Source: Pirellulales bacterium (GTDB lineage Bacteria; Planctomycetota; Planctomycetia; Pirellulales; JADZDJ01). Taken from it: 32,100 nt of DNA. Location: contig JADZDJ010000145.1 in the NCBI GenBank assembly GCA_020851115.1, positions 1 to 32,100 on the forward strand. Reading direction: 5' to 3'. Shown piece by piece: positions 3,692-30,679 of this stretch. Both the position numbers and the translations under genes were made by a program. The stretch's first letter is position 1. Each line of letters opens with the position of its first letter. The notes beneath the pieces were generated by a model. The model was not told where the DNA came from. It saw only the letters and a list, made by a program, of their open reading frames with translations, and searched no databases.

Positions 3692-5125
3692 ATGCAGATT
3701 GTTGCATCTTCCCCGGAAAATCCTCGAACCGCCGGCCCGCACCGCGAGCTGACGCTGCTCGACGCCACTTCGGTCGCGGTGGGAATAATCATTGGCTCGG
3801 CGATTTACCAGCTCAGCCCGACGGTAATCGCGTCGGTGCCGAATCTGGCAGCGCTGCTGCTGGTGTGGATCGCGGGAGGGCTGATCGCGCTGGTCGGCGC
3901 GCTCACCTATGCCGAACTAGCTTCCGCTTATCCCGAAGACGGCGGCGATTACATCTATCTGCGGCGAGCGTTCGGCAAACGACTGGCCTTTGTTTATGCG
4001 TGGTCGGAACTGCTGGTGATCCGCCCCGGCTCGATGGGAACGATGGCCTATGTATTTGCCGAGTATCTACAGGAACTGCTGCAGATTCCCGCAATGGCTC
4101 GAGTTCCAGGGAACCTATCCGCAGTATTCTGGGCCGTGGTTGCAATCCTGGCGATGTCGCTGGTCAACCGTGCGGGCGTCAAACAATCGAAGTGGACGCA
4201 ATATGGGCTTACATCCGCCAAGCTGATCGGTTTGTTCGCAATTTTTGTCGCCGCGCTGATCGGACCAGGGCAGAATGTGCCGCTTCCCGATTTGACGCTG
4301 CCGCCGCGCAGCACCAACATCCATCGGGCGATGATCTTGATCGTGTTCGCCTACGGCGGTTGGAACGACATTGTATTTGTCGCCGCGGAAACGCATGAGC
4401 CGCGGCGAAACATCCCCCGAGCGCTGCTGCTGTCGCTGGGAATAGTCGCGGTCGTCTATTTGGCGACAAATTTTGCGTTCATTCACACGTTGGGCTACGA
4501 ACTAGCGGCGCAATCGAAGCAAATCGCCGCCCGAATGATGGAAGTGCGATTTGGCGAATTTGGCAGTCGGTTCGTCAGCGGATTAATTTGCGTTTCGGCG
4601 CTCGGCGCGATCAACGGCATGATTCTCACGCGCTCGCGGATCTACACGGCCGTTGGCCGAGATTATCCCAGACTCGCCAATTTAGCGACGTGGAACCCGC
4701 GAACCGGCGCGCCCGAACCGGCAATCCGCTTGCAAACCTTGGCGACGCTGGCGCTGGTGATGGTGCTGGGACTGGTGAGCCGTGGGTTCGAAAGCATGGT
4801 GGTGTTCACGACTCCTGTTTTTTGGTTCTTCTTGTTGTTGGTCGGCGTTTCACTTTTTGTCCTGCGGCGAACCGACCCTCATACGCCGCGGCCATATCGA
4901 GTGATCGGCTACCCGGTGGTGCCGATCCTTTTTTGCCTCTCGTGCGTATGGGTATTCTGTGCGGCGGTGGGATTCGCGATCTTCAACAGCTCGTACGAAG
5001 CGCTGTGGTCGATCGGCGTGGTCGCGGCCGGGTTTTGGATTGCGTATGCGTGGCTCCCCAGTCGGCCGGCGACAGTGCCGTCCGCCGAGGAAACCTCATT
5101 GCGGCAGGATATTGAGCCGGAGTAG
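3692..5125 (+). CDS. APC-superfamily amino acid permease
   Basis: A 477-residue, very hydrophobic protein with about 12 membrane segments, the usual length for amino acid/polyamine/organocation permeases. The first segment contains the glycine-rich unwound helix GIIIGSAIY, where the substrate backbone binds. The loop after the second segment has the family pattern YAELASAYPEDGGDYIYL. This places it with the LAT/SLC7-like branch, which moves amino acids across the inner membrane by proton symport or exchange. The exact substrate cannot be read. The cytoplasmic tail is short and acidic (residues ~460-477). It is divergent from the phosphoesterase and followed by a long non-coding gap, so it is probably monocistronic. 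No clear ribosome binding site precedes the ATG. Confidence 0.88.
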   Translation: MQIVASSPENPRTAGPHRELTLLDATSVAVGIIIGSAIYQLSPTVIASVPNLAALLLVWIAGGLIALVGALTYAELASAYPEDGGDYIYLRRAFGKRLAFVYAWSELLVIRPGSMGTMAYVFAEYLQELLQIPAMARVPGNLSAVFWAVVAILAMSLVNRAGVKQSKWTQYGLTSAKLIGLFAIFVAALIGPGQNVPLPDLTLPPRSTNIHRAMILIVFAYGGWNDIVFVAAETHEPRRNIPRALLLSLGIVAVVYLATNFAFIHTLGYELAAQSKQIAARMMEVRFGEFGSRFVSGLICVSALGAINGMILTRSRIYTAVGRDYPRLANLATWNPRTGAPEPAIRLQTLATLALVMVLGLVSRGFESMVVFTTPVFWFFLLLVGVSLFVLRRTDPHTPRPYRVIGYPVVPILFCLSCVWVFCAAVGFAIFNSSYEALWSIGVVAAGFWIAYAWLPSRPATVPSAEETSLRQDIEPE

Positions 5126-5320
5126 TGGAGGCCGATTGTCACTTTTTCGGCGGCCGCTGGAGCGCGGCAATGCGTCGCCATTTCGCCGCAGGAGGACGAA
5201 AAAAAGCAACGCGATCCGCAAAGGCTCGATTGCACCAAGCCGGCGATCGCCCGTTGGAATGGGAGTGTGATTTCGGCTCAGGTTTCGCGGAAAAAATGTA
5301 GCGTCGGCCGGTGTCGGTCG

Positions 5321-5337
5321 CTCGGTATTTTCCCGAG
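5321..5337. promoter_or_regulatory. Possible enhancer dyad for a sigma-54 activator
   Basis: CTCGG (5321-5325) and CCGAG (5333-5337) form a 17-bp dyad, centred about 137 bp before the -24 box. NtrC-like dimers bind such dyads upstream and loop to the promoter. The arms are only 5 bp and a second copy was not found, so this is weak. Confidence 0.25.
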
Positions 5338-5465
5338 AAAACGGCTGCGAACAGGCGTCGCGGCGGGCAGCGAACCGGGTCTCGGATCGGCGAAGAAACG
5401 ATGCATCCCGTTATCGCTGGAACATGGGTCGAAACGCGTCCTAACATCGATCGCGAAGCCCAGCA

Positions 5466-5481
5466 TGGCACTGGATTTGCA
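5466..5481 (+). promoter_or_regulatory. Sigma-54 (-24/-12) promoter
   Basis: The sequence TGGCAC-TGGAT-TTGCA matches the -24/-12 consensus TGGCAC-N5-TTGCW at every specified base, with GG (5467-5468) and GC (5479-5480) exactly 10 bases apart. Transcription would begin near 5492, about 295 bases before the giant gene. Such promoters are silent without an AAA+ activator, and the gene pair downstream of the giant gene encodes one. Confidence 0.7.
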
Positions 5482-5505
5482 AAACTTCGCGTGGATGCCG
5501 CCAGA

Positions 5506-5572
5506 TTCACCGTTCGGGTGGGTCTGGGCAAACCTCCGCCGCCGGGTGACATTGGGCGGGCAAACGGTTGAA
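5506..5572 (+). promoter_or_regulatory. Nested stem in the predicted leader of the giant gene
   Basis: TTCACCGTT (5506-5514) can pair with AACGGTTGAA (5563-5572) over nine pairs with one bulged base. Inside it CCGCC (5536-5540) can pair with GGCGG (5555-5559). The structure starts about 14 bases after the predicted start of transcription. No known riboswitch or leader family was recognised. Confidence 0.25.
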
Positions 5573-5786
5573 CCCCGAGGAAAAGCGATTATGATGGAAC
5601 CCTAGGCAAGGCTCAGACCGGCTTGGTTCCCGGGCTGCGGGATTCTCGTCTTTTGAAGATACCAGGCCAAACAAATTCCAAAGTAGACGCAATCGAGTGA
5701 ATTCTGCTTGGAGTGATTTCTCATCAGGGAATTACGTGCAGGAAGCGTTGGTTGTCAGATTGTACACCTGAGACGAGGCAACTTTT

Positions 5787-8700
5787 ATGGGTTTCCGGTC
5801 ATGGCGCCCGATTCGAACCAATTCTAAGAAGCAACTTCAACGGCGGAACGAAAAGCGGCGGCGCGGCTACGTCGCTCGGCAATACGAGCACTTGCTGTTT
5901 GAACCGTTGGAATGGCGACAATTGCTGACGGTGACGCTAGCGCCCATCGCGGGCAGCGACGCGGGGGGCGTGTTCAAAATCCCCTCCGGCAAGGTTCTCT
6001 ATGTGCCGCTGACAGGCGCCGACACGGGCAACACGGTCAGCTATTCGGCGACGAGCAGCGATTCGCAGGTGCAGGTCCACGTCATGGACGGTAATCCGAC
6101 GTTGCAGCTTCAGGTTCACGGCACACGCAGCGGCGGCGCGACCTTCTCTGGGACGTTGAACATCGAACTGTTCGATAATCTTGCGCACGACACGGTGCAG
6201 ACGATTTCGAATCTGGTGAACTCAGGCGTTTACAACGGCAAACAGTTTTATCGCATTGTGCCGAACTTTGTCATTCAAGGAGGCTTGCAAGGTTCGCCCG
6301 CGGAGCCGCAGTTTCCCGACGAATTCAATGCGCTGCTCTCGTTCAATAGCCCCGGCCTGTTGGCGATGGCCAATCCCGGCAACCCCGACAAGAATACGTC
6401 GGAATTCTTTGTTACGGATATCGATCTGCCGCTGTCGAGCGATCCGCAGCATCTCAATTTCCGCCACAACATTTTCGGTCAGTTGACGAGCGGATTCAAT
6501 ACTTATCAGGACATCATGAATGCGCAGGGAATTACCTCGGATAATTCCACTCCCAGCCCGGCCGTGATCATCGATTCCGCAACCATCGTCGGCGGTGGCG
6601 ATCAAAGCGCCGTGCTGCAAGTCATCGTGCCGAACGATTTCACCGGCGTTTCGTCGATCAACGTCACCGCAACATCGTCCGACACGAGCACGGCAGCACA
6701 GTCGTTCAACATCAATGCCGCGCCGGCCACGACTCCCACCGACTCACAGCCGATCATCCTCGCCCCCGTAACCGACAAGCTCACCACGACCAACGCGCCG
6801 ATCAGTTTTCCCATTTCCGCCAGCGTGCTATCGGGAGTGACGCTCGATAGCACCCCCTTTTCCGTCACCGGATCCGATGAATTTCGGTCGACACCGCAAC
6901 ATGTGACCGTGCAAGTGACTCCGGGCGCCAATAACACGGCGACGGTAACGCTGACGCCGGCCGCCGGCTTTACCGGCTCGATCGATTTGGTGCTTCACGC
7001 CGACGACAGTGCCCTTAATTATCACGACGCAATGCGGTTTGCACTGAATGTCGTCGCCCCCGTTGCGATGACTTCGCATACCAACCCCGTCAATGTATCT
7101 ACCGGGCCAACTGCTTCAGTAGGCGGCACGGGTGAGCCAGACGCCACGATCTCTGTCGTGGTCAGCGACGGCACGCATTCGACGAATCCACAAACGACCA
7201 CTGTCGCGCAAGACGGAACGTGGTCGATCGGCGGTATCAACCTGAGTTCATTCGACTCAGGGAACATCACCTACACGGCAACCGACACGACAAACAATAC
7301 GACACCGGCCACCGCCAGCGCCGTGTTCGATGTCACCTCGCCCACCGTCGTGATCTCTCCCGTTGGCCCGATCAATAACACCAACGTAGCCAATTTCACG
7401 GTGAACGGCACCGGCGAAGTCGGCTCTACCATTTCGCTCGTGGTCAGCGATGGATCCACGACGGCCGGTCCGTTGACTACGACGGTCAACGACGCAGGAA
7501 ATTGGACGATCTCCAACATCAATCTGACCAGCTTGCTCGATGGAACGATCACGATGACCGCCACGGCGACGGATGCCGGCGATAATTCGGCCCAAGACAG
7601 CGAAATCGTCACCAAAGACGTCGTCGCCCCCGACGTTTCGATTACGACCGCCTCCAATCCGATCACGCTGGAAAACATAACCACCGCGTCAATCAGCGGC
7701 ACCGGCGAAGTCGACGCGACGATCACCCTGGTCATCACCGACGGCACGCACTCGACCGATCCCCTGACGACAACGGTCGCCGGCAATGGCACATGGTCGT
7801 TCGCGGGCGTCGATCTCAAGGATTTGGACGATGGGACCATCACCTATCAGGCGACCGCCGCGGACGCCGCCGGCAACGAAGCCAGCGATACGTCGGATGC
7901 GGTCAAGTTGGCGGTGGCTGTGACGGCGTTTACCAATCCGATCAATCTTGCCAACGTCGCGAGCGCATCGATCGGCGGCACTGGCGCAGCCGATGTGGAA
8001 ATCTCCGTCGAAATCAGCGACGGCAATGCCGGCCATACCCCGATTACCGAGACGGCGACGATCGGCAGCAACGGGCTTTGGTCGATCACAGGCATCGATC
8101 TGTCGGCATTGGACGACGGCACGATCACCTACAAGGTGACCGCCACCGATGCCGAGGAAAACTCCGTCGAGTTGACGCGCACCGCGCTCATGGATGTCGT
8201 CGCTCCGGCCATCGCCATCACCGGCGTCACCAATCCCATCAATGCCAGCAACGCCAGCAACGTGGTGGTTAGTGGCACGACGGACGTCGGCGCGACCGTC
8301 GTCGTCAAGGCGAGCATCAACGGCAACGAGACTGGGACTGTCAACGCAACGGTCGATTCCAACGGCCAATGGACCGCCACGATCGACGTCGGCTCGTTGG
8401 CCGACGGCACGCTCTCGTTCACGGCGACGGCCACGGACGCCGTCGCCAATTCCGCGGCCGATACTGAAACGGCCGCCAAAGACACGGTCGCCCCAGTCGT
8501 CACGATTAGTTCGGCGACCGATCCTATTACGTCGGGCAACCAATCCAACGCATCGATTAGTGGAAACGTTACCGGCACCGGCAGTGAAGCGACGACAATC
8601 ACGGTCGTCATTAACGACAACGACGGATCGACGCCGGCCGTCACCCGCACCGCAACTGTCAGCAGCGATGGAAGTTGGTCGATCACGGACGTCGATCTTA

Positions 8701-11700
8701 CTTCGCTCGATGACGGCCAAATCACTTACTCCGTCACCGCCGCGGACGTCGCCGGCAACGCAAGCGCTCCGGCCACTCTCAACGCCGTAAAGAGCGTCGC
8801 CGACAACAGCCTTTCAGGCTTTGCCTACGTCGATGCCGATGGCGACAAACAGAAAGACACGAACGAGGCGATCCTTGGGGGCATCTTGGTTACGCTGCTG
8901 GGGGTCGATCCCGGCGGCAATCCCATCCCTTCGCAAACCACGACGACCGCCAGCGACGGATCGTATCACTTCGACAATCTGCCCGCGGGAACCTACACCC
9001 TGCGCGAAGCTCAACCCAGCCAGTTTAAGAGCAGCGGTGCCACCGCCGGCAATTTGGGCGGCCAAGCGGCGATCGATATAATCACGCAGATCGTCATTTC
9101 CGGCGGCCAAGATGGAACCGACTACAATTTCGGCGAAAAAGGCCTGAAATCGTCCTTGGTAACCATCAACGACTTTCTCGCTTCGACGCCGCCGGCTCAG
9201 GAGCGCTACAACAACGCCGTCGCCAACGGCACAAGCACGGCCACGGTCGAATCGATCGCCAAGCTCGATGCCGATCCCGCCAACGGCAGCCAGGTGCGAT
9301 ACACGGTGACGTTCAATCGGAACGTCAGCGGCGTCGATGCCGCCGATTTCCAAGTGATCGCGCCCGGCAACCATGTCACCGGCGCTTCGATCGCCAGCGT
9401 GAGCGGCAGCGGCAAGACATACACCGTCACGGTCAACACCGGCACGGGCAGTGGCATGCTCGGTCTGGCGCTGCGAGACAACGATTCGATTCTGGACAGC
9501 AACAGTGGGAAGCTCGGCGGCACTGGCACGGGCAACGGCGATTTTGTTGCCCCCTATTACAACGTCTCTAAAGCGCTCAACGTCTCCATCGACCAACCGG
9601 CCGCGATCAATTCCGCGAACCAACACAACATCAGCGCCAGCGGCACGGCCGAAGCGAATTCGACCGTCAAGCTCACCATCAGCAATGGAGCGAATTCGCT
9701 GGCGGAGCGGCAAACCACCGCCAACAACAGCGGCAATTGGACGATCTCGAATATCGACGTTTCGACACTGCCTGAGGGCACGATCACGTTTTCCGCCACC
9801 GCCACCGTCGGTTCGGTCACTTCGGCTCCGGCGACCAAGACGACGTCGAAAGACACCGTTGCGCCGGCCGTTGCAATCACATCGGCGACCAATCCGATCG
9901 GCGACGCTCAAGATCAGAATGTGAATGTGAGCGGCACGGTTGAAGTAGGCTCGACCGTTTCCGTTGTGGCCACCGATGGCACGACCACCACCTCGGCCGT
10001 GTCGGCCACCGTCGATGCGAGTGGAAACTGGTCCATCGCCGGCTTCAATGTAAGCAGTTTGCAGGATGGTTCGATCACGTTCACGGCCACGGCCACCGAT
10101 GCCGCGGGCAACACGGCAACCGGCTCCACGACGGCGACCAAAGACACGGTCGCGCCGGCCGTTGCAATCACGATGGTCACGCCGACGGTTATTAACAGCG
10201 CTAACCAAAGCAGCGTCGGCGTTTCCGGCACGGCCGAAGCAGACGCCAGTATTACGCTGTCGGCCAGCAACGGCGCGAATTCGATCACCCCGTTGACGAC
10301 CACCGCGGACTCCAATGGCAATTGGAGCGTGAGCAACATCGACGTGAGCACACTAGCGGACGGCACAATCATCTTCCGCGCCACCGCGAGCGACGCCGCC
10401 GGTAATCCCGCCAACGCGACGCAGGAGGCCACCAAGGATACGGTCGCTCCGGCAGTCACACTCGCCGATCCGCCCATAATCATTCTCGGCAACGAGACCA
10501 ACTATGCCGTGAGCGGCACCGGCGAAGCCGGCGCGACGGTGGCGATTGTCATCGGCGACGGCACGAACCCCAACATCACGCCGGCGGCGGCAACCGTCGG
10601 CCAGGACGGCCTGTGGACGATCGCCGGCATCGACCTGAGCGGCTTGTCGGACGGCACGATCACTTTTACGGTCTCCGCAACCGATGCCGCGGCCAACACT
10701 TCGGCGCCGACCTCGAAGACCGCACAGAAAATCACCACAGCGCCGGAAGTTGCGCTGTCCGAAGTCACCGACCCCATCGGCATCGACAATCAGCATTCGA
10801 CCACCGCCAGCGGCACGAGCGAAGAAGGCGTGACGATTTCCGTGGTGGCCAGCGACGGCACGCACACGACCGCTCCCAAATCGGTCGTCGTGGGCAATTC
10901 CGGCACATGGACGATCGTGGACATCGACGTCAGCGCTTTGGACGACGGCACGATTACCTATACGGCCACTGCCACCGATATCATCGGCAACACGGCAACG
11001 AGCGACCTGACCGCGACCAAGACGACGGTGGCCATTACCTCGGTCACCGATCCGATCAACGCCGCAAATCAAGCCAGCGTTTCGGCCGCCGGTGTCGGCG
11101 AGCCGAACGCCAGCATCGCGCTCACGATCGATGACGGCGACGACCAAACCGCGCCGATTCAAACCACAGGCTCCATCGATCTTAATGGCGATTGGTCCAT
11201 CTCGGGGATCGATGTCAGTTCTCTCACCGATGGCACGCTCACCTTCACGGTGACCGCCACCAGCGCCAATGACAACACGGCCTCGAAGAGCCTCACCGCC
11301 GCCAAGGATACAGTCGCTCCGGCGGTCGATATTACCTCGGTCACCGATCCGATCGTTTCCGCGAATCTCGCGAGCGTCGCCGTCAGTGGCACGGGGGAAG
11401 CTGGCGCAAGCGTGACCGTGGTGATTGGCGACGGCGCCAACTCGGACATTACTCCGCCAGCGGTGACGGTGGGCGAGGACGGCCACTGGACGATCGCCGG
11501 CATCGACGTTAGCTCGCTCGCCGACGGCGCGATTACCTTCATGGCCGTGGCCACGGATAACGTCGGCAATTCGTCTGCCCCGGCCACAGCGACGGCCACG
11601 AAAGACACTGTCGCGCCCGAGCTAAGCATTGGCGATGTCACCGACCCCATCGGGCTGGCGAATTACCATTCGACGGCGATCCAGGGCACCGGCGAAGCAG

Positions 11701-14700
11701 GAGCATCCGTCAAAGTGATTGCCACGGATGGAACCACTTCGACCAGTGAATTCACCACCACCGTCGGTCAAGATGGCAACTGGTCGATTTCCGGCATCGA
11801 CGTCGGCACCTTAAACGACGGCACGATCACTTACCACGTGACCGCGACGGATGAGGCAGGCAATGAGACGGACGGAAGCGCGACGGCCACCAAAGCGACG
11901 GTCGCCATTACGTCGGCGACCGATCCGGTCAACGGCAGCAACGTCGCGCACATTGCCATCGGCGGCACGGGCGAGGTGGACGCAGCCATCGCCGTCGTCG
12001 TCACGGACGGTACCACCACGACCAGCCAATACACCACGACCATCGATGCGGGGGGCACTTGGTCGATTTCGGACATGGATGCGAGCGCGTTGGCGGACGG
12101 CACGATCACCTACATGGTGACGGCGACCGACAGCGGCAGCCATTCGGCCACGGCCAGTAAGACCGCTCTCAAAGACACGGAGCCGCCGGCGCTGAGGGTA
12201 CTCGACTATACCCATCCGATCGGAATTGGAAACCAGCACAGCTTGACAGTTCAAGGCATTGCCTCTCCAGAAGCCATCGTCTCCGTGTTCGTTACCGATG
12301 GCACGAACTCAACGACCGTGCTCACCACGATGGCCGATCCGGATCATACCGAATTCACCATCTCCGGCATCGACGTCAGCGCATTGGCGGATGGCCAAGT
12401 CACTTACAAGGTGACGGCGACCGATCCAGCGGGCAACGAGCGCACGGACGACAAAGAGACCGGCAAATCGACGGTTGCAATCACTGCTGTCACCGATCCG
12501 ATCATTCTCACGAATGCCACGACGACCTCGATCGTCGGAACCGGCGAAGCAAACGCCGACATCTCGGTTGTGGCCAGCGACAGCGACAGCGCAACCACCA
12601 CGGAATATACCACGACGATCAACGCCGACGGCAATTGGTCCATTGCCAATATCGACGTCAGCGCCTTGAAAGACGGCGTCATCACCTATACGGCGACCGC
12701 CACCGATGCCGACAGCAATTCGGCGACCAGCAGCAAGACCGCAACCAAGAATACCGTCGCCATCACCATGGTCACCGATCCGATCAACGCGGCCAACCAG
12801 GCGAGCGTTTCGATCGGTGGAACTAGCGCAGTTGGGGCGATCGTCGCAGTCGCAATTAGCGACGGGGTCAATCCCGAGATCACCGGGCAAACCGTCATTG
12901 TTGACGGCAGCGGCCATTGGTCGATCGAGGGTGTCGATGTCACCGCGCTTGCCGACGGCGAGCTGACCTTTACGGCAACGGCGACCTTGGGCGCAAACGT
13001 CGGGCACGCCACGATGACCGCCACCAAAGACGTCGTCGCTCCTTCCATCGTGATTACATCGGCCACCAATCCCATCGGTACGCCGACCCAATCGAATACG
13101 ACGGCCAGCGGTACGACCGAAGCCGGAGCGACCATCGTCTTGTATGTCACCGATGCACTCGAGATGACCACAACCTACAACGGCATCGCCGATGGCAGCG
13201 GCCATTGGACCATTTCCGGCATCGACGTCAGCGCCCTGAACGATGGCGCTGTGGGATTCGTCGCGACCGCCACGGATTTGGCTGGGAATACTTCTTTAGA
13301 AGGCGTGCGTTTGGCCTACAAGGACACGGTAGCGCCAACGGTCGAAATGACGCTGGTCACCGAAGTGATCGATTTCACCAACTTCCACAATACTTCCGCC
13401 AGTGGAACCGTAGAGTCCGGCGCGATTGTCTCGGTCGTCGCCAGCGACGGAACGAACTCGACCGCTCCTGTAACGGCTGTCGTGGAGAATGACGGCAGTT
13501 GGTCGGCAACCGGGATCGACGTCAGCCTGTTGCTGGGCGGCGTCATCACATTCACCGCCACCGCCACCGACTCCGCCGGAAACACCGCCACCGACAGTCT
13601 AACGGCAATGCTGGCGACGGTTTCGATCACTTCGGTCACGGATCCGATTGTGCCGACGAACGACGACACGACGACCGCCAGCGGCACCGGCTCTCCAGGC
13701 GCTGCAATTGCACTGAAAGCGAGCGATGCATCGAGTGCGGCAACGAGCGAATACACGACGACGATTGCGATCGACGGCACATGGACCATTAGTGACATTG
13801 ACGTGAGCATGCTCGTCGATGGCCAAATTACTTATACTGCGACGGCCACATTCGGAGCCGAGACGTCGGTCTCCACCAAGACGGCGACCAAAGACACGAC
13901 TCCACCGACGCTAACCATCGATGCCGACAGCGTCACGAATCCGATCAACATCGTCAACGCAGCGAGCACTTCGCTTTCCGGCACGGTCGAACCTGGTTTG
14001 CTCGTCGCGGTCACGGTCACCGATGGAATAACCATACTCGGTCCGTTTGCAGCCGTTGTCGAACCGGACGGCGCATGGGCGGCCGATGGCATCGATGTCA
14101 GCAGCCTGTTTGATTCCACACTGACCTATTCCGTCACGGCCACCGACGCCGCTGGGAACTCGACTCAAACGAGCCGAACTGCCAATAAGGAAACGGTCGC
14201 GCCAAACGTCACGGGCCTTACGCTAACCGATCCGAATCCGACTTTGGAGCTTACCGTCCACTTTACGGTCGTGTTTAGCGAAGCGGTAACGGGCGTTGGC
14301 ACGAGTAGCTTTACGACAGTTCCGGGTGGCGACGTGTTAGGTGCTTCGATTGACAACGTTTCGGGCAGCGGCGATACCTACACCGTCACCGTCAGCTTTG
14401 GCGGCGGCGCCGGCACGATCGGACTCAATGTGAACGATGTCGACCAGATTTTTGACCTGTCCGGCAATCCGCTGGGCGGGCTGGGCGATCACAACGGCGA
14501 TTTTACCGGCGAGGTTTATACCGTCGGCGATTTGTCGTCTGCCAAGAATGTCTTTGACTTTGGCGCCGTCGGCGACGGCGTCGCCGATGATACCGCGGCC
14601 ATTCAAGCGGCGATCGACGCTGCGATTGCGGACGGCGGAGGCGTGGTTTACATTCCCGCCGGCACGTTTGCCGTGAGCGCTTCGTTGGTGGTTCAAGAAG

Positions 14701-15935
14701 CCTCCAACGTGCATATCATCGGCGCTGGCAAAGGGCAGACGGTGTTGGTGTCGGCCCCCGATCTTGGTTCGTATACCTTCCACGGGACTTCGACCGCCGC
14801 CGTGATCCTGCTGTCGGAATCCAACCATTGTTCGGTGCGCAATCTGACGGTGGACAAGCGCGGCGAAACCAGCACGTACAACGGCATTTCGCTGTGGTAC
14901 GGGTTTGCCGGCGGCGGCACACCCAGTTCCAACTGCGACATTGTCGACTGCGAAGTGCTTTCCAGCGGCACGCACTATTCGTATCAAATCTGGCTATTGA
15001 ACGCTCAGCACAGCCGCGTTCTGAACTGCACGGTAGATGGCGGAAAAGACGTGCCCGATTTGGGCGACGATTCCTCCGACGGCATCGAAGCCTTCGGCGG
15101 TTACGATATCGAAATCAGAGGAAACAACGTCAAGCGCGTCGATGGCATCGGCATTCACCTGTTCCAAGACCCCTTGCTATCCGATGCGAGCCACGACACC
15201 ATTGTGGTCACCGACAATGTCGTCGAGACGTGCTTTCGCGGAATAGGAGGTCCGATCGCGGTTGGCACGCACAATGTCACCATCGCCAACAACACCATTA
15301 CCGGATCGATTGGGCGCGGGATCGGATTTACCTCCAACTCTGCGGTCGTGATCGAGAAGCTGAACATTTTGAATAATGAGATTGAGAATTGCAACGAAGG
15401 TGTGACGATCTTTAGCACTGGCGGACCGATCATGAGCGACGTGTTGATCGACGGCAACACCGTGACTGGCACGACATCGACCAACACCGGCGCCATCTAT
15501 TTGCAGGGCTGCAACAACGTTCAAGTCTCCAATAACCAAATCAGCAATACCACGCTTCAGTCGATTCGGCTAAACTCTTGCGACCAGATACAAATCCTCG
15601 ACAATACGTGCGACAATTCCGGGACCGAAGCGGCGTCGAAGCACGTCCAAATATGGACGAGCAGCAATGTGCTCATTCAAGACAACTGGTTTGGAAAAAT
15701 CGGCGTCGCCGGTTCGGTGATCCGCACCGACGGAAGCAGTTCGAACATCAACTTGGTCGATAACACGTTCGATAACTCGGGCGGATTGCAGAGCTGGGCC
15801 GCGTTTTTCGCCGACGTCACCGGGGGCAGCATTGTCGGCAATCAATTAGTGAACGAATCCGACTTCTATGCTCCCGCGTGGGTTATTTATCCGAGTTCCA
15901 GCAACATCACGTTCAACAACAACGATGGGATGTAG
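5787..15935 (+). CDS. Giant secreted protein: LEPR-like motif, cyclophilin, 22 Ig-like repeats, SdrD B-like domain, pectate-lyase beta-helix
   Basis: 3,382 residues. The basic N-terminus holds FEPLEWRQLL (38-47), a variant of the LEPR-XLL motif of large planctomycete exported proteins. Residues ~115-270 are a cyclophilin-type prolyl isomerase: FYRIVPNFVIQGG keeps the catalytic Arg, MANPGNP and FFVTD follow, and the position of the cyclosporin-binding Trp is His. An uncharacterised beta-rich linker (~272-427) leads to six Ig-like repeats (428-1007). Next come an SdrD B/Cna-B-like domain with the acidic loop DADGDKQKDTNE (1008-~1115), a FtVtFs-type beta domain (1154-1265) and sixteen more Ig-like repeats (1266-2809). 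A second FtVtFs domain follows (2810-2920). The C-terminus is a Pectate_lyase_3 right-handed beta-helix starting NVFDFGAVGDGVADDT (2921-3382) with Asn-ladder turns. No dockerin, sorting motif or C-terminal anchor is visible. The ATG has GAGG 8 bases upstream. Role inferred: surface or matrix protein that binds or cleaves polysaccharide. Confidence 0.9.
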   Translation: MGFRSWRPIRTNSKKQLQRRNEKRRRGYVARQYEHLLFEPLEWRQLLTVTLAPIAGSDAGGVFKIPSGKVLYVPLTGADTGNTVSYSATSSDSQVQVHVMDGNPTLQLQVHGTRSGGATFSGTLNIELFDNLAHDTVQTISNLVNSGVYNGKQFYRIVPNFVIQGGLQGSPAEPQFPDEFNALLSFNSPGLLAMANPGNPDKNTSEFFVTDIDLPLSSDPQHLNFRHNIFGQLTSGFNTYQDIMNAQGITSDNSTPSPAVIIDSATIVGGGDQSAVLQVIVPNDFTGVSSINVTATSSDTSTAAQSFNINAAPATTPTDSQPIILAPVTDKLTTTNAPISFPISASVLSGVTLDSTPFSVTGSDEFRSTPQHVTVQVTPGANNTATVTLTPAAGFTGSIDLVLHADDSALNYHDAMRFALNVVAPVAMTSHTNPVNVSTGPTASVGGTGEPDATISVVVSDGTHSTNPQTTTVAQDGTWSIGGINLSSFDSGNITYTATDTTNNTTPATASAVFDVTSPTVVISPVGPINNTNVANFTVNGTGEVGSTISLVVSDGSTTAGPLTTTVNDAGNWTISNINLTSLLDGTITMTATATDAGDNSAQDSEIVTKDVVAPDVSITTASNPITLENITTASISGTGEVDATITLVITDGTHSTDPLTTTVAGNGTWSFAGVDLKDLDDGTITYQATAADAAGNEASDTSDAVKLAVAVTAFTNPINLANVASASIGGTGAADVEISVEISDGNAGHTPITETATIGSNGLWSITGIDLSALDDGTITYKVTATDAEENSVELTRTALMDVVAPAIAITGVTNPINASNASNVVVSGTTDVGATVVVKASINGNETGTVNATVDSNGQWTATIDVGSLADGTLSFTATATDAVANSAADTETAAKDTVAPVVTISSATDPITSGNQSNASISGNVTGTGSEATTITVVINDNDGSTPAVTRTATVSSDGSWSITDVDLTSLDDGQITYSVTAADVAGNASAPATLNAVKSVADNSLSGFAYVDADGDKQKDTNEAILGGILVTLLGVDPGGNPIPSQTTTTASDGSYHFDNLPAGTYTLREAQPSQFKSSGATAGNLGGQAAIDIITQIVISGGQDGTDYNFGEKGLKSSLVTINDFLASTPPAQERYNNAVANGTSTATVESIAKLDADPANGSQVRYTVTFNRNVSGVDAADFQVIAPGNHVTGASIASVSGSGKTYTVTVNTGTGSGMLGLALRDNDSILDSNSGKLGGTGTGNGDFVAPYYNVSKALNVSIDQPAAINSANQHNISASGTAEANSTVKLTISNGANSLAERQTTANNSGNWTISNIDVSTLPEGTITFSATATVGSVTSAPATKTTSKDTVAPAVAITSATNPIGDAQDQNVNVSGTVEVGSTVSVVATDGTTTTSAVSATVDASGNWSIAGFNVSSLQDGSITFTATATDAAGNTATGSTTATKDTVAPAVAITMVTPTVINSANQSSVGVSGTAEADASITLSASNGANSITPLTTTADSNGNWSVSNIDVSTLADGTIIFRATASDAAGNPANATQEATKDTVAPAVTLADPPIIILGNETNYAVSGTGEAGATVAIVIGDGTNPNITPAAATVGQDGLWTIAGIDLSGLSDGTITFTVSATDAAANTSAPTSKTAQKITTAPEVALSEVTDPIGIDNQHSTTASGTSEEGVTISVVASDGTHTTAPKSVVVGNSGTWTIVDIDVSALDDGTITYTATATDIIGNTATSDLTATKTTVAITSVTDPINAANQASVSAAGVGEPNASIALTIDDGDDQTAPIQTTGSIDLNGDWSISGIDVSSLTDGTLTFTVTATSANDNTASKSLTAAKDTVAPAVDITSVTDPIVSANLASVAVSGTGEAGASVTVVIGDGANSDITPPAVTVGEDGHWTIAGIDVSSLADGAITFMAVATDNVGNSSAPATATATKDTVAPELSIGDVTDPIGLANYHSTAIQGTGEAGASVKVIATDGTTSTSEFTTTVGQDGNWSISGIDVGTLNDGTITYHVTATDEAGNETDGSATATKATVAITSATDPVNGSNVAHIAIGGTGEVDAAIAVVVTDGTTTTSQYTTTIDAGGTWSISDMDASALADGTITYMVTATDSGSHSATASKTALKDTEPPALRVLDYTHPIGIGNQHSLTVQGIASPEAIVSVFVTDGTNSTTVLTTMADPDHTEFTISGIDVSALADGQVTYKVTATDPAGNERTDDKETGKSTVAITAVTDPIILTNATTTSIVGTGEANADISVVASDSDSATTTEYTTTINADGNWSIANIDVSALKDGVITYTATATDADSNSATSSKTATKNTVAITMVTDPINAANQASVSIGGTSAVGAIVAVAISDGVNPEITGQTVIVDGSGHWSIEGVDVTALADGELTFTATATLGANVGHATMTATKDVVAPSIVITSATNPIGTPTQSNTTASGTTEAGATIVLYVTDALEMTTTYNGIADGSGHWTISGIDVSALNDGAVGFVATATDLAGNTSLEGVRLAYKDTVAPTVEMTLVTEVIDFTNFHNTSASGTVESGAIVSVVASDGTNSTAPVTAVVENDGSWSATGIDVSLLLGGVITFTATATDSAGNTATDSLTAMLATVSITSVTDPIVPTNDDTTTASGTGSPGAAIALKASDASSAATSEYTTTIAIDGTWTISDIDVSMLVDGQITYTATATFGAETSVSTKTATKDTTPPTLTIDADSVTNPINIVNAASTSLSGTVEPGLLVAVTVTDGITILGPFAAVVEPDGAWAADGIDVSSLFDSTLTYSVTATDAAGNSTQTSRTANKETVAPNVTGLTLTDPNPTLELTVHFTVVFSEAVTGVGTSSFTTVPGGDVLGASIDNVSGSGDTYTVTVSFGGGAGTIGLNVNDVDQIFDLSGNPLGGLGDHNGDFTGEVYTVGDLSSAKNVFDFGAVGDGVADDTAAIQAAIDAAIADGGGVVYIPAGTFAVSASLVVQEASNVHIIGAGKGQTVLVSAPDLGSYTFHGTSTAAVILLSESNHCSVRNLTVDKRGETSTYNGISLWYGFAGGGTPSSNCDIVDCEVLSSGTHYSYQIWLLNAQHSRVLNCTVDGGKDVPDLGDDSSDGIEAFGGYDIEIRGNNVKRVDGIGIHLFQDPLLSDASHDTIVVTDNVVETCFRGIGGPIAVGTHNVTIANNTITGSIGRGIGFTSNSAVVIEKLNILNNEIENCNEGVTIFSTGGPIMSDVLIDGNTVTGTTSTNTGAIYLQGCNNVQVSNNQISNTTLQSIRLNSCDQIQILDNTCDNSGTEAASKHVQIWTSSNVLIQDNWFGKIGVAGSVIRTDGSSSNINLVDNTFDNSGGLQSWAAFFADVTGGSIVGNQLVNESDFYAPAWVIYPSSSNITFNNNDGM
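7068..8807 (+). repeat. First block of six Ig-like repeats (about 290 bp each)
   Basis: Six tandem units of about 97 residues encode bacterial Ig-like domains. Each follows the pattern NPI..N..., SGTGE.(G/D)AT, VVSDGT, TTTV..DG.WSI, DGTITYTATATDAAGN, K..VAP. Units differ clearly at the DNA level, so the array is old and not a recent expansion. It ends at the SdrD B-like domain. Confidence 0.9.
9582..14213 (+). repeat. Second block of sixteen Ig-like repeats (279-297 bp each)
   Basis: Sixteen units of 93-99 codons. Unit starts are at 9582, 9876, 10167, 10461, 10755, 11034, 11331, 11628, 11907, 12198, 12480, 12762, 13053, 13347, 13626 and 13917. Units at 10755, 11628 and 13347 are exactly 279 bp and lack the APxV tail of the linker. 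The array contains higher-order triplets of about 865 bp, described in the findings. Confidence 0.9.
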
Positions 15936-16210
15936 GCAATCCATGGTCATCACCCACGTGGTCGCGTAGCCGCCCACGAGGGGCGACGGACGGGATGAGT
16001 CGGCATCGCGCAAGTTTCGGCTAGCAAAGCGATTGCGGCGATTTTGTCGCACCGCCATCCAAGGCCGCAATGAGCTTCCGCCGCAATGCGGCCGACCTTT
16101 CTCCGATTCGGGCCGTCTGCTACACTCTCGGCCCCGTCAACGGCCCGTAAGGCTGCGGCATGGCTGCCTCGGCGTTACTGGCCACTGCTAGCATTGCTTC
16201 CGCGCATGCG

Positions 16211-16218
16211 ACAAGGAG
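16211..16218 (+). promoter_or_regulatory. Ribosome binding site that fixes the kinase start at a GTG
   Basis: The bases ACAAGGAGGT hold AAGGAGGT, nearly the full anti-16S match, at about 16213-16220. They lie 5 bases before GTG at 16226. The ATG at 16160 has no such site, so the GTG is the better start. Confidence 0.75.
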
Positions 16219-16225
16219 GTCGCCC

Positions 16226-18109
16226 GTGCTGTCCCGGTGGCCCATCCGGAACAAACTGCTGCTTGGCATCGCCCTGCTGCTGGTCATTGTTCTCACAATG
16301 TCGATCAGCAGTTTTCAAGGGACCTATGCCTACCGCAACCTCGTGCGCAGCCTCAGTAGCCGCGCGACGGAATTGCCGCTGGCGACGCAATTGCTCACCC
16401 AGGTGGGCGAATTGCGGGTGATCCTGGCGGAGTTGCAAGCGCAATTGCCATTTTCCGATTTGTCGATCAGCCCCACAGGGCAGCAATTGGGCGCAAGCTT
16501 TTGCCAGAAGTTTGCCCATGTTCGCGAAACGGCCAACGATTATCGCGACGAATTGGACGAGCACGAGCACACGGAATTTCATATCGGCGATATCGGCGAC
16601 GTCGCTACCGATTCGCCTCGCCCGAGCGAGCTTACGGAATTGACCACCGGCCGGCTGTATTACGGCCGCGAGTGGCAGAAGCTGCGCGAAATCGAGGTCT
16701 GCCTGACCAGGATTGAGCAGCTTACCACGGATCGCGCCGACCAAGCAGGCACCGATGAGGCAGCCGCGCCGGAACACGAAATCAATGCGTCAAACGCGGA
16801 AAGCGACCATGCCGCAGGGGATGCCCTTGCCAAGGAGAATGATCCTGACGCGGCCGAAACGGCGACCACCAGAGTGAAGCTAGGGCCGCGATATCGAGAG
16901 TCGGAATTGAAGCTGGCGACCAGTCCGGCGGCGTGGTATTGCGATTATGATCGCATCAGCAGCCTGGCGAGTGAGGAACTCGTACAACTGCAAAATGCCG
17001 CGCGCGATTTACCCAGCTATTTGCAAGGCCACATGCACGAATTGGCCGGCGATGTAAAGCTGCGCTATCGCGCCTGGATTTTGGCCACGTGGTTTTGCGC
17101 CGTGGCGGCCACGCTGTTGACCGTGCTGTTCATCGTGCTGCTTTATCGCTGGGTCTTTCGGCCGCTGCGCTGTTTGGTAAAAGGCTCGCGCCGCGTGGCC
17201 GGCGGCGATTTCAACTATCGCATCGAACTATCCTCGCACGACGAAATGGGGGAATTGGCCGAGGCGATGAACGACATGACGACGCGGTTTCGCACGATCC
17301 GCGACGACCTTGACCGCCAGGTTCAAATTCGCACCAAGCAAGTCGTCCGCAGCGAGCAACTCGCCAGCGTCGGCTTTCTGGCCGCCGGCGTGGCGCACGA
17401 GATCAACAACCCGCTGGCGTCGATCGCGCTGTGCGCCGAGTCGCTCGAAGGGCGACTGTTGGAGGCCTGTGGGGAGAATACCGAGCAAACGGAATTGGTC
17501 GGCCGCTATCTGCGGATGATTCAGACCGAAGCCTTTCGCTGCAAAGAAATCACCGAGAAACTGCTCGACTTTTCCCGCGTGGGCGAAGTCCAGCGCCATG
17601 GCGCCGACCTGCGCGAACTCGTGCAAACCGTCATCGACATGGTTCGTCATCTCGGCAAGTATCAAAACCGTCAACTCGAATTCTTGGCCGGCGAGCCGGT
17701 GATCGCGCTGGTCAACGCGCAGGAAATCAAGCAAGTCGTTCTCAACCTGGTCACGAATGCACTGGATAGCGTCGATGCCGGCGGCAAACTGGCGATCGAG
17801 TTACGGAAAAACGGCGAGTTCGCCGAAATGACTTTTGCCGACGACGGCTGCGGCATGACCGAGGAAGTGCAGAGACATCTGTTTGAACCTTTTTTCACTC
17901 GCAAGCGCGGCGGCCAAGGCACGGGGCTGGGCTTGTCGATCGTCTATCGTATCGTCAGCGACCACGGTGGGCAGATCGAAGCCAGCAGCGACGGACCAGG
18001 CCGCGGCTCGAAGTTTCAGGTGACGTTGCCGCTGGCGGAAATGCCCAATCGCGAATCCATGCAAACGCTTATTTATAAGGAGAGCAGCCATCGCTACCAA
18101 GCCGCGTAA
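16226..18109 (+). CDS. NtrB-type membrane sensor histidine kinase
   Basis: 628 residues from a GTG start chosen for its strong ribosome binding site. A first membrane helix lies at about residues 7-28 and a second at about 282-305, so residues ~29-281 form a periplasmic sensor region. That region is unlike known sensor folds and includes an acidic, Ala/Glu/Asp-rich stretch around residues 170-220. A HAMP linker follows (~306-360), then the H-box GVAHEINNP with phosphorylated His391, an N-box (LVTNALDSV), and the ATP-binding boxes FADDGCGM and GGQGTGLGLSI near the C-terminus. Kinases with this H-box usually phosphorylate NtrC-type regulators, and such a regulator overlaps this gene's end. The signal is unknown. 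The kinase lies 290 bp after the giant gene in the same direction. Confidence 0.9.
   Translation: MLSRWPIRNKLLLGIALLLVIVLTMSISSFQGTYAYRNLVRSLSSRATELPLATQLLTQVGELRVILAELQAQLPFSDLSISPTGQQLGASFCQKFAHVRETANDYRDELDEHEHTEFHIGDIGDVATDSPRPSELTELTTGRLYYGREWQKLREIEVCLTRIEQLTTDRADQAGTDEAAAPEHEINASNAESDHAAGDALAKENDPDAAETATTRVKLGPRYRESELKLATSPAAWYCDYDRISSLASEELVQLQNAARDLPSYLQGHMHELAGDVKLRYRAWILATWFCAVAATLLTVLFIVLLYRWVFRPLRCLVKGSRRVAGGDFNYRIELSSHDEMGELAEAMNDMTTRFRTIRDDLDRQVQIRTKQVVRSEQLASVGFLAAGVAHEINNPLASIALCAESLEGRLLEACGENTEQTELVGRYLRMIQTEAFRCKEITEKLLDFSRVGEVQRHGADLRELVQTVIDMVRHLGKYQNRQLEFLAGEPVIALVNAQEIKQVVLNLVTNALDSVDAGGKLAIELRKNGEFAEMTFADDGCGMTEEVQRHLFEPFFTRKRGGQGTGLGLSIVYRIVSDHGGQIEASSDGPGRGSKFQVTLPLAEMPNRESMQTLIYKESSHRYQAA
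18077..18082 (+). promoter_or_regulatory. Ribosome binding site in front of an ATC start
   Basis: AAGGAG lies 7 bases before an ATC codon at 18090-18092 and inside the 3' end of the kinase gene. No ATG, GTG or TTG is correctly placed for it in the regulator's frame; the nearest, TTG at 18114, is 31 bases away and has no site of its own. Confidence 0.6.
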
Positions 18110-19478
18110 GAAGTTGAAATTGCTGTTTGCCGACGACGAACGCACCCTGCAAGAACTCATGCGGATCGAACTGGATCGTATGGGACACGAAGTAACCGTG
18201 TGTCCCGACGGTTTGACGGCCGTTGCCGCGCTGGAGCGCAACACCTACGACTGTCTGATTGTCGATCTCGACATGCCCGGCCTCAATGGCGTGCAGGTCA
18301 TTGCCAAGGCCAAGCAGCTTTCGCCCGATACCGATGCGGTCGTCCTCACCGGTAAATCGTCGCTGGAGACGGCGGTCGCCGCGCTGCGCTACGGCGCCTT
18401 CGATTACCTCACCAAACCGTGTAAATTGGTGGAAATTGAAGCGCTCTTGAATCGCGTGATGCAAAAGCGCGAACTGACGCAGAAATTCCGCGCGCTCAAG
18501 CGACGGCTGGAAAGCGTCGAAGGCCCGTGCCAATTGGTCGGCGAATCGGCGGCGATGGAACGCGTCAAAAAGCTGATCGGCAAAGTGGCACCAACCGATT
18601 CGACCGCGCTGATTACCGGCGAAACCGGCACCGGTAAGGAATTGGTCGCCCGCGCGGTCCACGATCAAAGCGCCCGCTCGGAAATGCCGTTCGTCGCCAT
18701 CAATTGCGGCGCGCTGCCCGAAAGCCTGATTGAAAGCGAGTTGTTCGGCCATCGCAAAGGGAGCTTCACGGGGGCGGATGAGCATCGTGTCGGTCTGTTT
18801 GAAGTGGCCGACGGCGGAACGCTATTTCTCGACGAAATTGGTGAATTGCCCAAAGCGATGCAGGCCAAATTGCTGCGCGTACTCGAAAGCGGCGAAATCC
18901 GCCGCGTCGGCGAGAATCAGTCGCTCACCGTCGATGTGCGAATCGTTTGCGCCACGCATCGGCAGCTCGAAGAAATGGTCGAGCAAGGAGAATTTCGACA
19001 AGACTTGATGTTCCGCGTGAACACCTTCGAAATTCATATTCCGCCGCTCCGAGAGCGGGTTGACGACATTCCACAACTGGCGACGCATCTGCTCCAACGG
19101 TTCCGCGCGCATCTGCGCACCGCCGAGCATCCCTACACCGCCGACACGATGCAGCGTTTGCAGCATCACGATTGGCCGGGCAACGTGCGCGAGCTGGCCA
19201 ACGTGGTCGAGCACGCCTCCATTCTGTGCGATGAGTTGCCCATCGCGGTCGAGCACCTGCCCGAACGATTCCATCAGCCGCGGCTGCGAATCGAAGCCGA
19301 TGTGTCGGGCAAGGTCATCGGCCCCATCACCTTGCGCGACCTGGAAATCCAAGCCATCTACCAATCGCTCCAGCGCCACGACGGCAACAAACCGAAAGCC
19401 GCCGAGGAGTTGGGAATTAGCCTGAAAACGCTGTACAACAAGCTCAATCAGACGAATCTTCTCGAGCGATCCGCGTAG
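18090..19478 (+). CDS. NtrC-family sigma-54-dependent response regulator
   Basis: 462 residues if begun at the ATC codon at 18090, which has AAGGAG 7 bases upstream; the first conventional codon is TTG at 18114. The receiver domain has the acidic pair in LLFADDE, phosphoacceptor Asp59 in [12 protein letters not shown], and the conserved Lys in YLTKP. The central AAA+ domain has Walker A GETGTGKE, the sigma-54 contact loop GSFTGA (usual form GAFTGA), and Walker [15 protein letters not shown] Fis-type helix-turn-helix ends the protein ([20 protein letters not shown]). It should oligomerise when phosphorylated by the kinase whose gene it overlaps by 20 bp, and open sigma-54 promoters. The only consensus sigma-54 promoter noticed in the window is in front of the giant gene, so that is the suggested target. 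Confidence 0.92.
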
Positions 19479-19628: not shown

Positions 19629-22600
19629 TTAGTTCACCGCGGCCAAACGCCTCGGCTCTGAACTTGCGAACTCCGCCGTCGATTCGCGACCGCGCTTGCG
19701 AAACCAGAGCCGCGCTTGATCGAGATACAAATAGACGACCGGCGTCGTATACAGCGTCAATAATTGGCTAAAAATCAGGCCGCCGACGATCGCAATGCCT
19801 AAGGGACGGCGCAATTCGGATCCATTGCCCGCGCCCAAAGCGAGCGGCAGCCCGCCGAGCAGCGCGGCCATGGTCGTCATGACGATCGGACGAAAACGCA
19901 AGAGGCAGGCCTTGAAAATCGCCACGTCGGGCGCGAAGTTGAACCGCCGCTCGGCATCGAGGGCGAAGTCGATCATCATGATGGCGTTCTTCTTGACGAT
20001 GCCGATCAGCAACACGATGCCGATCAGCGCCATGACGCTCAACTCGGTATTGCAAACCATCAAGGCCAACAGCGCGCCGACGCCCGCCGAGGGGAGCGTT
20101 GAAAGAATCGTGATCGGATGAATGTAGCTTTCGTACAAAATGCCCAGCACGATGTAGACGGTCACCAGCGCCGCCAAGATCAAGAGGGCCTCGTTGGACA
20201 GCGAATCGCGGAACGCCTGCGCCGTTCCCGAAAAGCTGCCGTGGATCGTCTCGGGCAATCCGATTCGATCGGTCAGTTGTTGCACTTGCTGGACCGCTTC
20301 GCCCAAGGCGACGCCGGGAGTTAGATTGAACGAAATCGTCACCGAGGGAAACTGGCCGGAATGATTCACCGAGAGCGAGGCGTTCTTGCGCTGGTAGTGG
20401 CACACGGCGCTGAGCGGAACTTGCTGCTGGTTGTTGCTGCGAACGTAGAGATGTCGCAGCGCATCGGGGTCTTGCCAGAATGCCGGCTCGACGCCCATCA
20501 CGACGCGATACTGGTTCATCGATTTGTACATCGTCGAGACGGGGCGCTGGCCGAAGGCGTCGTAGAGGGCATTGTCGATTCGCTGGGGCGTGACGCCCAA
20601 TCGCGCGGCGGCATCGCGGTCGATCACCAGCGAAACTTGCAGCCCGCGCGTTTGCTGGTCGGTGTTCACATCGACCAGCCCAGGCAGCTTGCGCATTTGC
20701 GCCAGCACCTGCGGCGCCCACTGGTTGAGATCTTCCAAGTTGTCTCCACGGAGCGTGAATTGGAATTGAGCGCTGCTCGCCCGGCCGCCGACGCGCAAGT
20801 CTTGCACGGATTGCAGCAGCAGCGTCGCTCCGGCCATGTTCGACGTTTTCGCGCGGATTCTGGCGATAATCTCGTCGGCGCTCGCCGTCCGTTCTGCGAG
20901 CGGCTTGACGGCGCAATACATTCGCGCGGTGTTTGCCGCGCCGCCGAAGTTCCCGCCCGTCAGTGCGATGACATTGTCGATCGCCGGGTCGTCACTCACA
21001 GCGCCGGCAAAGCGAATCAACAATTCTCGCATCGCCTGGAACGACGTTCCCTGATCGGCCAGCAGGTTGCCGACGAGTCGTCCGGTGTCTTGCTGCGGGA
21101 AAAATCCTTTGGGAATAATCACGTATAGATAGACGGTCAAACCGATCGTCGACAACATGACCAGCATGGTGATTGGGTGGTATCGCAGGGCCCGAGTCAA
21201 TGTCGCCTCGTAGAGACCCAACAGCCGCTGAAACACTCGTTCGCTCGCCCAATACAGCCGGCCGTGCCGCGCCTCGGACGCCGATTTGAGCAGCGCAGCG
21301 CACATCATCGGCGTCGTGGTCAGCGAAACGAGCAGCGAGATTCCGATCGCGACCGACAAGGTGACGGCAAATTCGCGAAACAGGCGGCCGACAATCCCGC
21401 CCATCAGGAGAATGGGAATGAACACGGCCACCAGCGAGACGCTGATCGACAGCACCGTGAAGCCGATTTCCTTGGCGCCGAGCAGCGTGGCCTGCAACGG
21501 CGGCAACCCGTCTTCGATATGGCGAGCGATGTTTTCGATCACTACAATCGCATCGTCGACGACAAATCCCGTGGCAATGGTCAGGGCCATCAGAGAAAGG
21601 TTGTTGACGCTGTACCCACACAGATACATCACGCCGAACGTGGTAATCAGCGAAACGGGAACGGCCACGCTGGGAATCAACGTGGCTCGCGGATCTCGCA
21701 GGAAAGCGAAGACGACCAGAATCACCAAGCCGACGGAAACCAGCAATGCGAATTGGACGTCCTCAATCGACGCGCGGATCGTCGCCGTCCGGTCCATGAC
21801 GACGTCCAGTTTCATGGCCGCCGGGATTTGCGCCCGGAGTTGAGGCAGGACTTCGCGCACCCGATCAACTGTGTCGATGATATTCGCGCCGGGCTGCCGG
21901 AAGATGACGAGCGTAATCGCCGGCTGCCCATCCGAGAAACCTGTCGCGCGTAAATCTTCGACGTCATCGGTCACCTTGGCGATGTCGGCTAATCGCACCG
22001 CCGCGCCGTTCCGGTAGGCGACGATCAGCGGCTCATATTCTTTTGCCTCCAACAGTTGATCGGTCGTGGTCAGCGCCCAGGTATGCCGCTCGTCGGAGAT
22101 TTGCCCCTTGGGGCGATTGGCGTTCGCGGCCGAGAGCGTCGTGCGAACGTCTTCCAGACCGAGGCCAAAATGGTTCAGCACCGTGGGATTGACGTCGACG
22201 CGCACTGCCGGCGGCGCGCCGCCGCTCGTAAAGACCTGGCCAATGCCGGAGACTTGCGAAAGTTTTTGCTGCAAGATCGTCGAGGCGACATCGTACATTT
22301 GTGGTTTCGTATAGGCATCGGAGGTGAGCGTCATGATCAGAATGGGCGCATCCGCCGGGTTGATTTTTCGATACCTGGGATTGTTCGGCAAATTCGTAGG
22401 CAGTTGCCCGCACGCGGCGTTGATCGCCGCCTGCACATCGCGGGCCGCCGCATCGATGTCGCGGCTCAAATCGAACTGCAGCGTGATGTTGGTCAGACCG
22501 AGAAAGCTGGTCGACGTCATTTCCGCGATCCCCGCGATGCGGCCGAACTGTCGCTCCAGCGGTGTGGCGACGGCCGAGGCCATCGTTTCGGGGCTGGCTC

Positions 22601-30665: not shown

Positions 30666-30679
30666 CCGAACGGTTTTCG

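Follow-up and report, generated by a model that had tools for sequence, protein, structure and literature searches.

A sigma-54-dependent response regulator of Pirellulales that very likely starts at a conserved AUC codon, and a predicted sigma-54 promoter before the adjacent giant gene

We analyzed a stretch of 32,100 nucleotides (nt) from a Pirellulales bacterium (assembly GCA_020851115.1, contig JADZDJ010000145.1, positions 1 to 32,100; hereafter the window), which carries, in one direction, a gene for a giant secreted-type protein, a histidine kinase gene and the gene of a sigma-54-dependent response regulator. An earlier note on this DNA had proposed that the kinase and the regulator form a dedicated switch for the giant gene, acting through a sigma-54 promoter. 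The more interesting result is, in our opinion, not this circuit but the start of the regulator gene, a conserved AUC or AUU codon which in the window is very likely the AUC at 18090. The features of the locus are as follows (lengths of proteins in amino acids, aa):

5466-5481, + strand: sigma-54 -24/-12 element TGGCAC-N5-TTGCA (exact match and matrix; expected transcription start near 5492)
5787-15935, + strand: giant secreted-type protein, 3,382 aa (open reading frame, ORF, and Pfam domains)
16226-18109, + strand: histidine kinase, HAMP-HisKA-HATPase (Pfam and orthologues; start read by eye)
18077-18082, + strand: Shine-Dalgarno sequence AAGGAG, 7 nt before the ATC
18090-18092, + strand: proposed AUC start of the response regulator, which lies within the kinase gene; the two genes share 20 nt, up to the kinase end at 18109
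18090-19478, + strand: sigma-54-dependent response regulator, 462 aa from the ATC (REC, AAA+ with GSFTGA, Fis-type helix-turn-helix)
18077-18109, and in other genomes loci L044-L062, L113, L114, L118, L124, L126 and most of L192-L223: AUC/AUU junctions in or just after the kinase gene

The two genes that follow the giant gene encode an NtrB-like kinase and a sigma-54 AAA+ activator, as the earlier note had recognized: HAMP, HisKA and HATPase domains were found in the former and the REC-AAA+(sigma-54)-Fis arrangement in the latter, with PF00072, PF00158 and PF02954 above the Pfam cut-off. The sigma-54 contact loop of the regulator reads GSFTGA in the window; G[AS][FY]TGA is present in 85 of 88 regulator sequences and the Walker A pattern in 79 of them. 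In their REC-AAA+(GAFTGA-type)-Fis and HAMP-HisKA-HATPase architectures the two proteins are alike to NtrC-, ZraR- and AtoC-type regulators with NtrB-like kinases, but they differ from these systems in the usual neighbours of the pair in relatives, which are Mla/Lpt-type envelope genes. The kinase ORF opens at ATG 16160, but the gene likely starts at GTG 16226, behind AAGGAGG at 16213-16219, and with the stop of the giant gene at 15935 it does not follow that gene tightly.

The conserved N-terminus of the regulator, (I)ATKP...LKLLFADDE, opens in the orthologous junctions at an ATC behind AAGGAG. We ran a classifier for ATG/GTG/TTG starts or ATH starts (H being A, C or T) with a Shine-Dalgarno match on 90 distinct orthologous junctions. 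The ATH class comprises 46 of them (42 ATC and 4 ATT), in which a 5-7-nt Shine-Dalgarno match lies 6-8 nt upstream of the start; these 46 junctions combine a conserved start outside ATG, GTG and TTG with a strong Shine-Dalgarno sequence. Several rows had been removed before counting: L014 (the L223 junction), L112 (the L049 locus), L019 (the L201 locus), L141 and L222 (adjacent regulator not found), and L218, where the anchor pattern failed and the junction was read by eye as RRRLAINPKPLKKLKLLYADDE. In 19 of the 47 ATH rows (the 46 junctions with one counted twice, as L014 and L223), the window included, no ATG, GTG or TTG occurs from the in-frame stop to the LLFADD anchor, a count in which codons no more than 6 nt from the anchor, TTG 18114 among them, are disregarded. 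The other 28 rows have some in-frame ATG, GTG or TTG upstream, mostly distant and without a Shine-Dalgarno sequence.

A junction pattern in which the start codon was left free, with context letters from ATC-type junctions, was run on 396 genomes. Among the 56 matches listed at up to two mismatches, 50 carry ATC, one ATT, two ATG and three another codon (CCG, AAT and GAT, once each). These three correspond to a second, chance-like match in genome G067, a doubtful match in G382 and a real junction in G028, where an ATG lies further upstream (L205); pattern matches at three mismatches are mostly chance. As a control, the same classifier applied to 67 neighbour-gene rows returned a single ATH case, with a nearer ATG, although the anchors of some families in this set are distant from the start, 16 of the 67 rows have no candidate at all and only 7 had a usual start plus a Shine-Dalgarno match. 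From these comparisons of junctions, the regulator very likely begins at the proposed AUC. Searches of the open-access PMC literature on non-canonical start codons listed no report of this start.

A second gene of the same order was examined for its start, namely infC, which encodes initiation factor 3 (IF3). The start region was located in 22 of the 24 genomes searched:

L224 (G000:C187), 1995-1993, - strand: infC start in the genome of the window; other genomes, L225-L247

An ATC at a conserved place with a Shine-Dalgarno sequence was found in 18 of the 22, an ATA in one, and other or doubtful starts in three. The gene in the window's genome reads AGGAGG-N9-ATC GAC AAG AAT CAA. As judged from the located starts, infC, the classical gene under IF3 control, is usually initiated at AUC in this order, and the 18 ATC starts and the single ATA indicate that codons of this class are used there.

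To follow the start codon through evolution, we used a tree of 88 regulators (midpoint-rooted for drawing; L139 and L223 were left out as short). Ten usual-start rows, from Gemmataceae, Isosphaeraceae and others, lie on one side of a branch with 100/100 support; on the other side stand all ATC and ATT rows, intermixed with 33 usual-start rows. The usual-start label requires 10 changes on the tree, at least four of them forced by well-supported branches, and the ATT rows call for four separate changes. We read this distribution as suggesting that ATC would be ancestral in the order and would then have been lost repeatedly.

Several observations weigh against this reading of the regulator start. 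A usual start is present in 44 of the 90 junctions (27 of them with a Shine-Dalgarno match, 17 lacking one), and among the pattern matches listed, ATG occupies the same place in G090 and G197, both of family f7, so that AUC is not indispensable, though ATG is rare at this place. At infC, an in-frame ATG abuts the AGGAGG in the window's family (3 of the 22 genomes), 9 nt before the ATC; the start there could be read in another way, although this ATG is too close to the AGGAGG to be served by it. Finally, in 37 of the 46 ATC/ATT junctions the kinase ends 20 or 23 nt past the regulator start, with the regulator in the +1 frame, and the overlap with the kinase frame also constrains the letters of the start. 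The remaining nine have their kinase stop upstream, by 34 to 170 nt, and keep the unit of Shine-Dalgarno sequence and ATC/ATT; one row is doubtful in each group, L044 in the first (in-frame kinase stop upstream) and L201 in the second (kinase end 930 nt away). Since the codon is kept in the nine junctions that do not overlap, double coding fails to explain it. Counting NAT against NAC among the kinase codons that cover the AT of the ATC was set aside as circular, the rows having been chosen for AT starts.

The same junctions bear on two other explanations. The regulator might start at a usual codon that escaped notice. This could be TTG 18114, the start given in the mechanical ORF list, or a codon far upstream within the kinase gene, of the kind that the 28 rows with an upstream ATG, GTG or TTG could offer. 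We regard this as very improbable, because TTG 18114 has no Shine-Dalgarno match and would cut the conserved N-terminus ATKP, many orthologues carry CTC or CTG at its position, and the 19 rows described above lack any usual start upstream as far as the stop. Alternatively, programmed +1 frameshifting close to the end of the kinase gene could produce a kinase-receiver fusion with AAGGAG as the frameshift stimulator, in keeping with the +1 frame of the regulator and the constant overlap of 20 or 23 nt. This would be the least credible of the explanations weighed here, as the nine loci with an upstream kinase stop keep the Shine-Dalgarno sequence and the ATC/ATT at the same spacing, and the distance of 6-8 nt suits initiation.

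Homologues of the kinase and the regulator were searched in 57 genomes, comprising that of the window and 56 relatives. In 50 relatives the best regulator match shows 61-86% identity across 386 or more of 454 residues; the remaining six (G019, G031, G037, G043, G049, G053) have regulator matches at just 41-45%, and in G031 a regulator start is visible at a contig end. The best kinase match reaches 49-76% in 50 relatives as well, a slightly different set. We fetched 20 neighbourhoods of the pair in relatives, of 12-19 kilobases (kb) each, and named neighbour families after one member each: they contain a PEGA protein in 10, a PP2C phosphatase in 9, an MlaD-type protein in 8, LexA in 8, MlaE in 7, an ABC ATPase in 7, a Clp-type ATPase in 5 and LptF/G in 4. 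The giant gene is in none of the 20, and the neighbourhood at L053 holds a protein that matches the cyclophilin domain of the giant protein alone. Both genomes of the window's own family (L044, L045) retain the envelope-type neighbourhood; the window's own genome has its PP2C orthologue at one end of a different contig, which does not carry the pair. By its distribution among these genomes, the kinase-regulator pair is a two-component system shared across the order. In the lineage of the window it stands apart from the envelope genes that usually surround it and follows the giant gene.

The element before the giant gene, TGGCACTGGATTTGCA at 5466-5481 on the + strand, is an exact -24/-12 match and the sole match with no mismatch in the window, which bears out the earlier note, where a perfect element had been seen before the gene and no second one noticed by eye; its distance to ATG 5787 of the 3,382-aa ORF is 305 nt (306 bp in the note). 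Both the GG-N10-GC spacing and the TGGCAC/TTGCA context of sigma-54 promoters are present. At up to two mismatches the window holds 11 matches, against 10.2 expected from shuffles. A matrix scan of the kind the note had called for was made with a home-made matrix (approximate weights, maximum 18.3); the site scored 17.2 and the runner-up in the window 11.8. The exact pattern occurs 12 times in the genome of 5.2 megabases, against 5 times for the reversed pattern, which puts the chance expectation at about 0.03 matches per window and agrees with the few per hundred windows estimated earlier.

On a generous reading, seven of the 12 exact sites lie where a promoter could be (L004, L005, L006, which is the site in the window, L007, L076, L078 and L079). 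The L076 site (G000:C203, near 2488) lies 159 nt before an Hsp20 gene, the L078 site adjoins another sigma-54 response regulator, and the L079 site (G000:C299, near 2459) lies 89 nt before a gene for a small secreted-type protein. A single RpoN match (PF04552, 212 bits) is present in the genome. Strong sigma-54 activator genes number 16 at E 3.2e-63 or better; five weaker matches were left out. A 112-aa ORF around the site (5267-5605) was treated as a non-gene and has no Pfam match. An Rfam scan of the window gave no match at the gathering score, and no clear enhancer-like inverted repeat was found upstream of the site, the only candidate being a 73% imperfect 15-nt pair at 5289-5333.

The earlier description of the gene product as a giant beta-helix protein applies to its C-terminal part, since the pectate-lyase/beta-helix region begins at about residue 2,921 and covers only the last 460 residues or so. 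The rest consists of a cyclophilin-like domain (residues 121-266) and immunoglobulin (Ig)-like repeats, with 12 Big_13 and 6 Big_6 stretches. The N-terminus carries an EPLE..LL motif of a kind that occurs in planctomycete exported proteins. Homologues of the N-terminal part at 45-49% identity were found in 5 of the 56 relatives. At E 1e-25 or better, giant homologues and the pair are on separate contigs, except for one copy in G020 about 200 kb from the pair; the assemblies are drafts, and contigs merely bound these distances.

Upstream stretches of 900 nt (570 nt in one case) were scanned before 12 giant homologues. Imperfect sigma-54 sites were found before three of them, with scores of 13.5, 13.9 and 14.1, which exceeds the roughly 0.2 expected (17 sites at or above 13 in 524 kb, both strands). 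The sites at L068 and L071 fall within neighbouring genes, and the latter also lacks the -12 GC. At L074 (G053:C44, about 5836-5851, - strand) a fair sigma-54-like site, AGGCATGAGGTTTGCA, lies 324 nt before the giant homologue, within a doubtful 123-aa ORF; this third site may be genuine. We did not count the three sites as support, but the giant-protein family may have a wider sigma-54 link.

Two further observations concern the surroundings of the giant homologues. At L073 (G018:C58) and L075 (G003:C22) they lie a few genes from another sigma-54 response regulator, which shares about 38% identity with that of the window. The amino-acid permease encoded at 3692-5125 of the window has homologues of about 45% identity near giant homologues in two other genomes (L066, 4934-6415; L070, 5706-7268), in the orientation opposite to that in the window.

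Whether the promoter works and what drives it are separate matters. The predicted sigma-54 promoter at 5466-5481 is, on the match and its position, rather more probably functional than a chance match. Against it stand a weak sigma-70-like site (9 of 12) at 5568-5595, the absence of any site scoring at least 10 before 9 of the 12 giant homologues, and the absence of any site scoring at least 13 before 21 further giant homologue loci (from a set of 29, of which 8 are shared with the 12 and L100, L102 and L103 have less than 300 nt upstream). The giant gene might be driven by a sigma-70-type or other promoter, with the -24/-12 match due to chance. The 5 matches of the reversed control beside 12 exact ones, and the position of some of the 12 inside or against genes, favour that explanation. 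We nevertheless consider it unlikely, if a serious contender, because the site is intergenic, co-oriented and near the maximal score, the ORF called around it lacks a Pfam match, and sigma-70-like sites are no more frequent than in shuffles.

A working sigma-54 promoter would need one of about 16 cellular sigma-54 activators. That this is the neighbouring pair, with kinase 16226 and regulator 18090 acting at 5466-5481 as a dedicated switch of the giant gene, was the proposal of the earlier note; such a switch would have been gained in this lineage. The genes are adjacent and in the same direction, the sigma-54 activator domain of the regulator is intact, removal of the pair from its usual neighbours makes a new local role possible, and the three imperfect sites hint at a wider link. 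We nonetheless judge a dedicated switch improbable: the pair is conserved across the order with no giant gene beside it, the element is absent or imperfect before giant homologues and is not conserved in front of most of them, and no clear inverted-repeat activator site precedes it. With 16 strong activators in the genome, adjacency is weak evidence of control. The note had named one finding that would refute the circuit, namely that close relatives retain both loci but have lost the element; this is roughly what the two same-family genomes present, although their giant homologues are only about 45% identical N-terminally and one has just 570 nt of upstream sequence. In general, if a sensor-regulator pair occurs throughout an order, a gene's place next to it is no evidence that the pair controls the gene. 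Taken jointly, a sigma-54 promoter before the giant gene and an order-wide pair with an AUC-started regulator are in our view a probable, and the best, explanation of the locus.

Elsewhere in the window, a HipA_2-like kinase gene followed by that of a DUF3037 protein (564-2326) possibly forms a two-gene unit. At 19629-31318, genes for two RND pump proteins and an HlyD-type adaptor (- strand) are divergent from those for a beta-propeller sensor kinase and a LuxR-type regulator (+ strand).

Translation of the regulator from AUC would likely be limited by IF3, by analogy with Streptomyces sigR. IF3 represses initiation at non-canonical codons (PMC5472188, PMC2268962). The sigR gene starts at GTC and is repressed by IF3; with a usual codon instead, SigR is overproduced relative to its antisigma factor and the regulon becomes constitutive (PMC5472188). 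The sigR-rsrA pair resembles the one studied here in being a two-gene pair with translational linkage (here a proposed one), a transcription regulator, a non-canonical start and an extensive Shine-Dalgarno sequence, and the sigR start is mis-annotated in genomes, as that of our regulator likely is. It differs in that sigR-rsrA encodes a sigma and an antisigma factor with a GTC start, whereas here a sigma-54 response regulator has its predicted start at AUC or AUU inside the kinase gene. The AUU, AUC or AUA start of infC serves autoregulation of a translation factor (PMC5472188, PMC13009471); infC shares the codon class of the regulator but is unlike it in being an autoregulated translation factor. 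An AUU start is also reported for pcnB, in a work cited in PMC13009471. That paper further describes ccpN (AUA) and cvfC1 (AUU) of Staphylococcus aureus, with conserved starts, extended Shine-Dalgarno sequences and lowered output; ccpN is a transcription regulator whose AUA start makes initiation medium-dependent (PMC13009471). Both are alike to the regulator in their conserved non-canonical starts and extended Shine-Dalgarno sequences, and unlike it in that they are not two-component genes and their starts were shown by experiment, that of the regulator being predicted from sequence.

In the proposed mechanism, IF3 would reject most initiation at the AUC of the regulator, and the strong Shine-Dalgarno sequence, together with ribosomes finishing the kinase where the genes overlap, would rescue some of it. 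Regulator output would stay low, tracking kinase translation and the level of IF3, and the AUC would hold the activator low, so that excess regulator does not switch the sigma-54 regulon on. A role of sigma-54 in controlling the bacterial exterior has been proposed (PMC3162934), and predicted sigma-54 sites are overrepresented upstream of chaperone and regulator genes in Planctomycetia or Planctomycetota (PMC12316311); both statements are consistent with the Mla/Lpt-type neighbours and with the Hsp20 site but prove no target. We tentatively propose, at slightly less than even confidence, that in much of the order translation initiation determines the output of an envelope-linked sigma-54 two-component system, the activator being made from an IF3-sensitive AUC or AUU codon only, a codon of the class that serves infC as well.

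To our knowledge, few bacterial genes keep AUC or AUU starts over long evolution, and the characterized ones are mostly regulatory. The start of this regulator is likely mis-called by programs limited to ATG, GTG and TTG. If the proposal is true, the sigma-54 regulon senses the balance of IF3 to ribosomes and the translation of the kinase besides the signal of the kinase itself, and a start of this kind in a sigma-54 activator of about 30 genera would tie the fidelity of initiation to the control of envelope genes.

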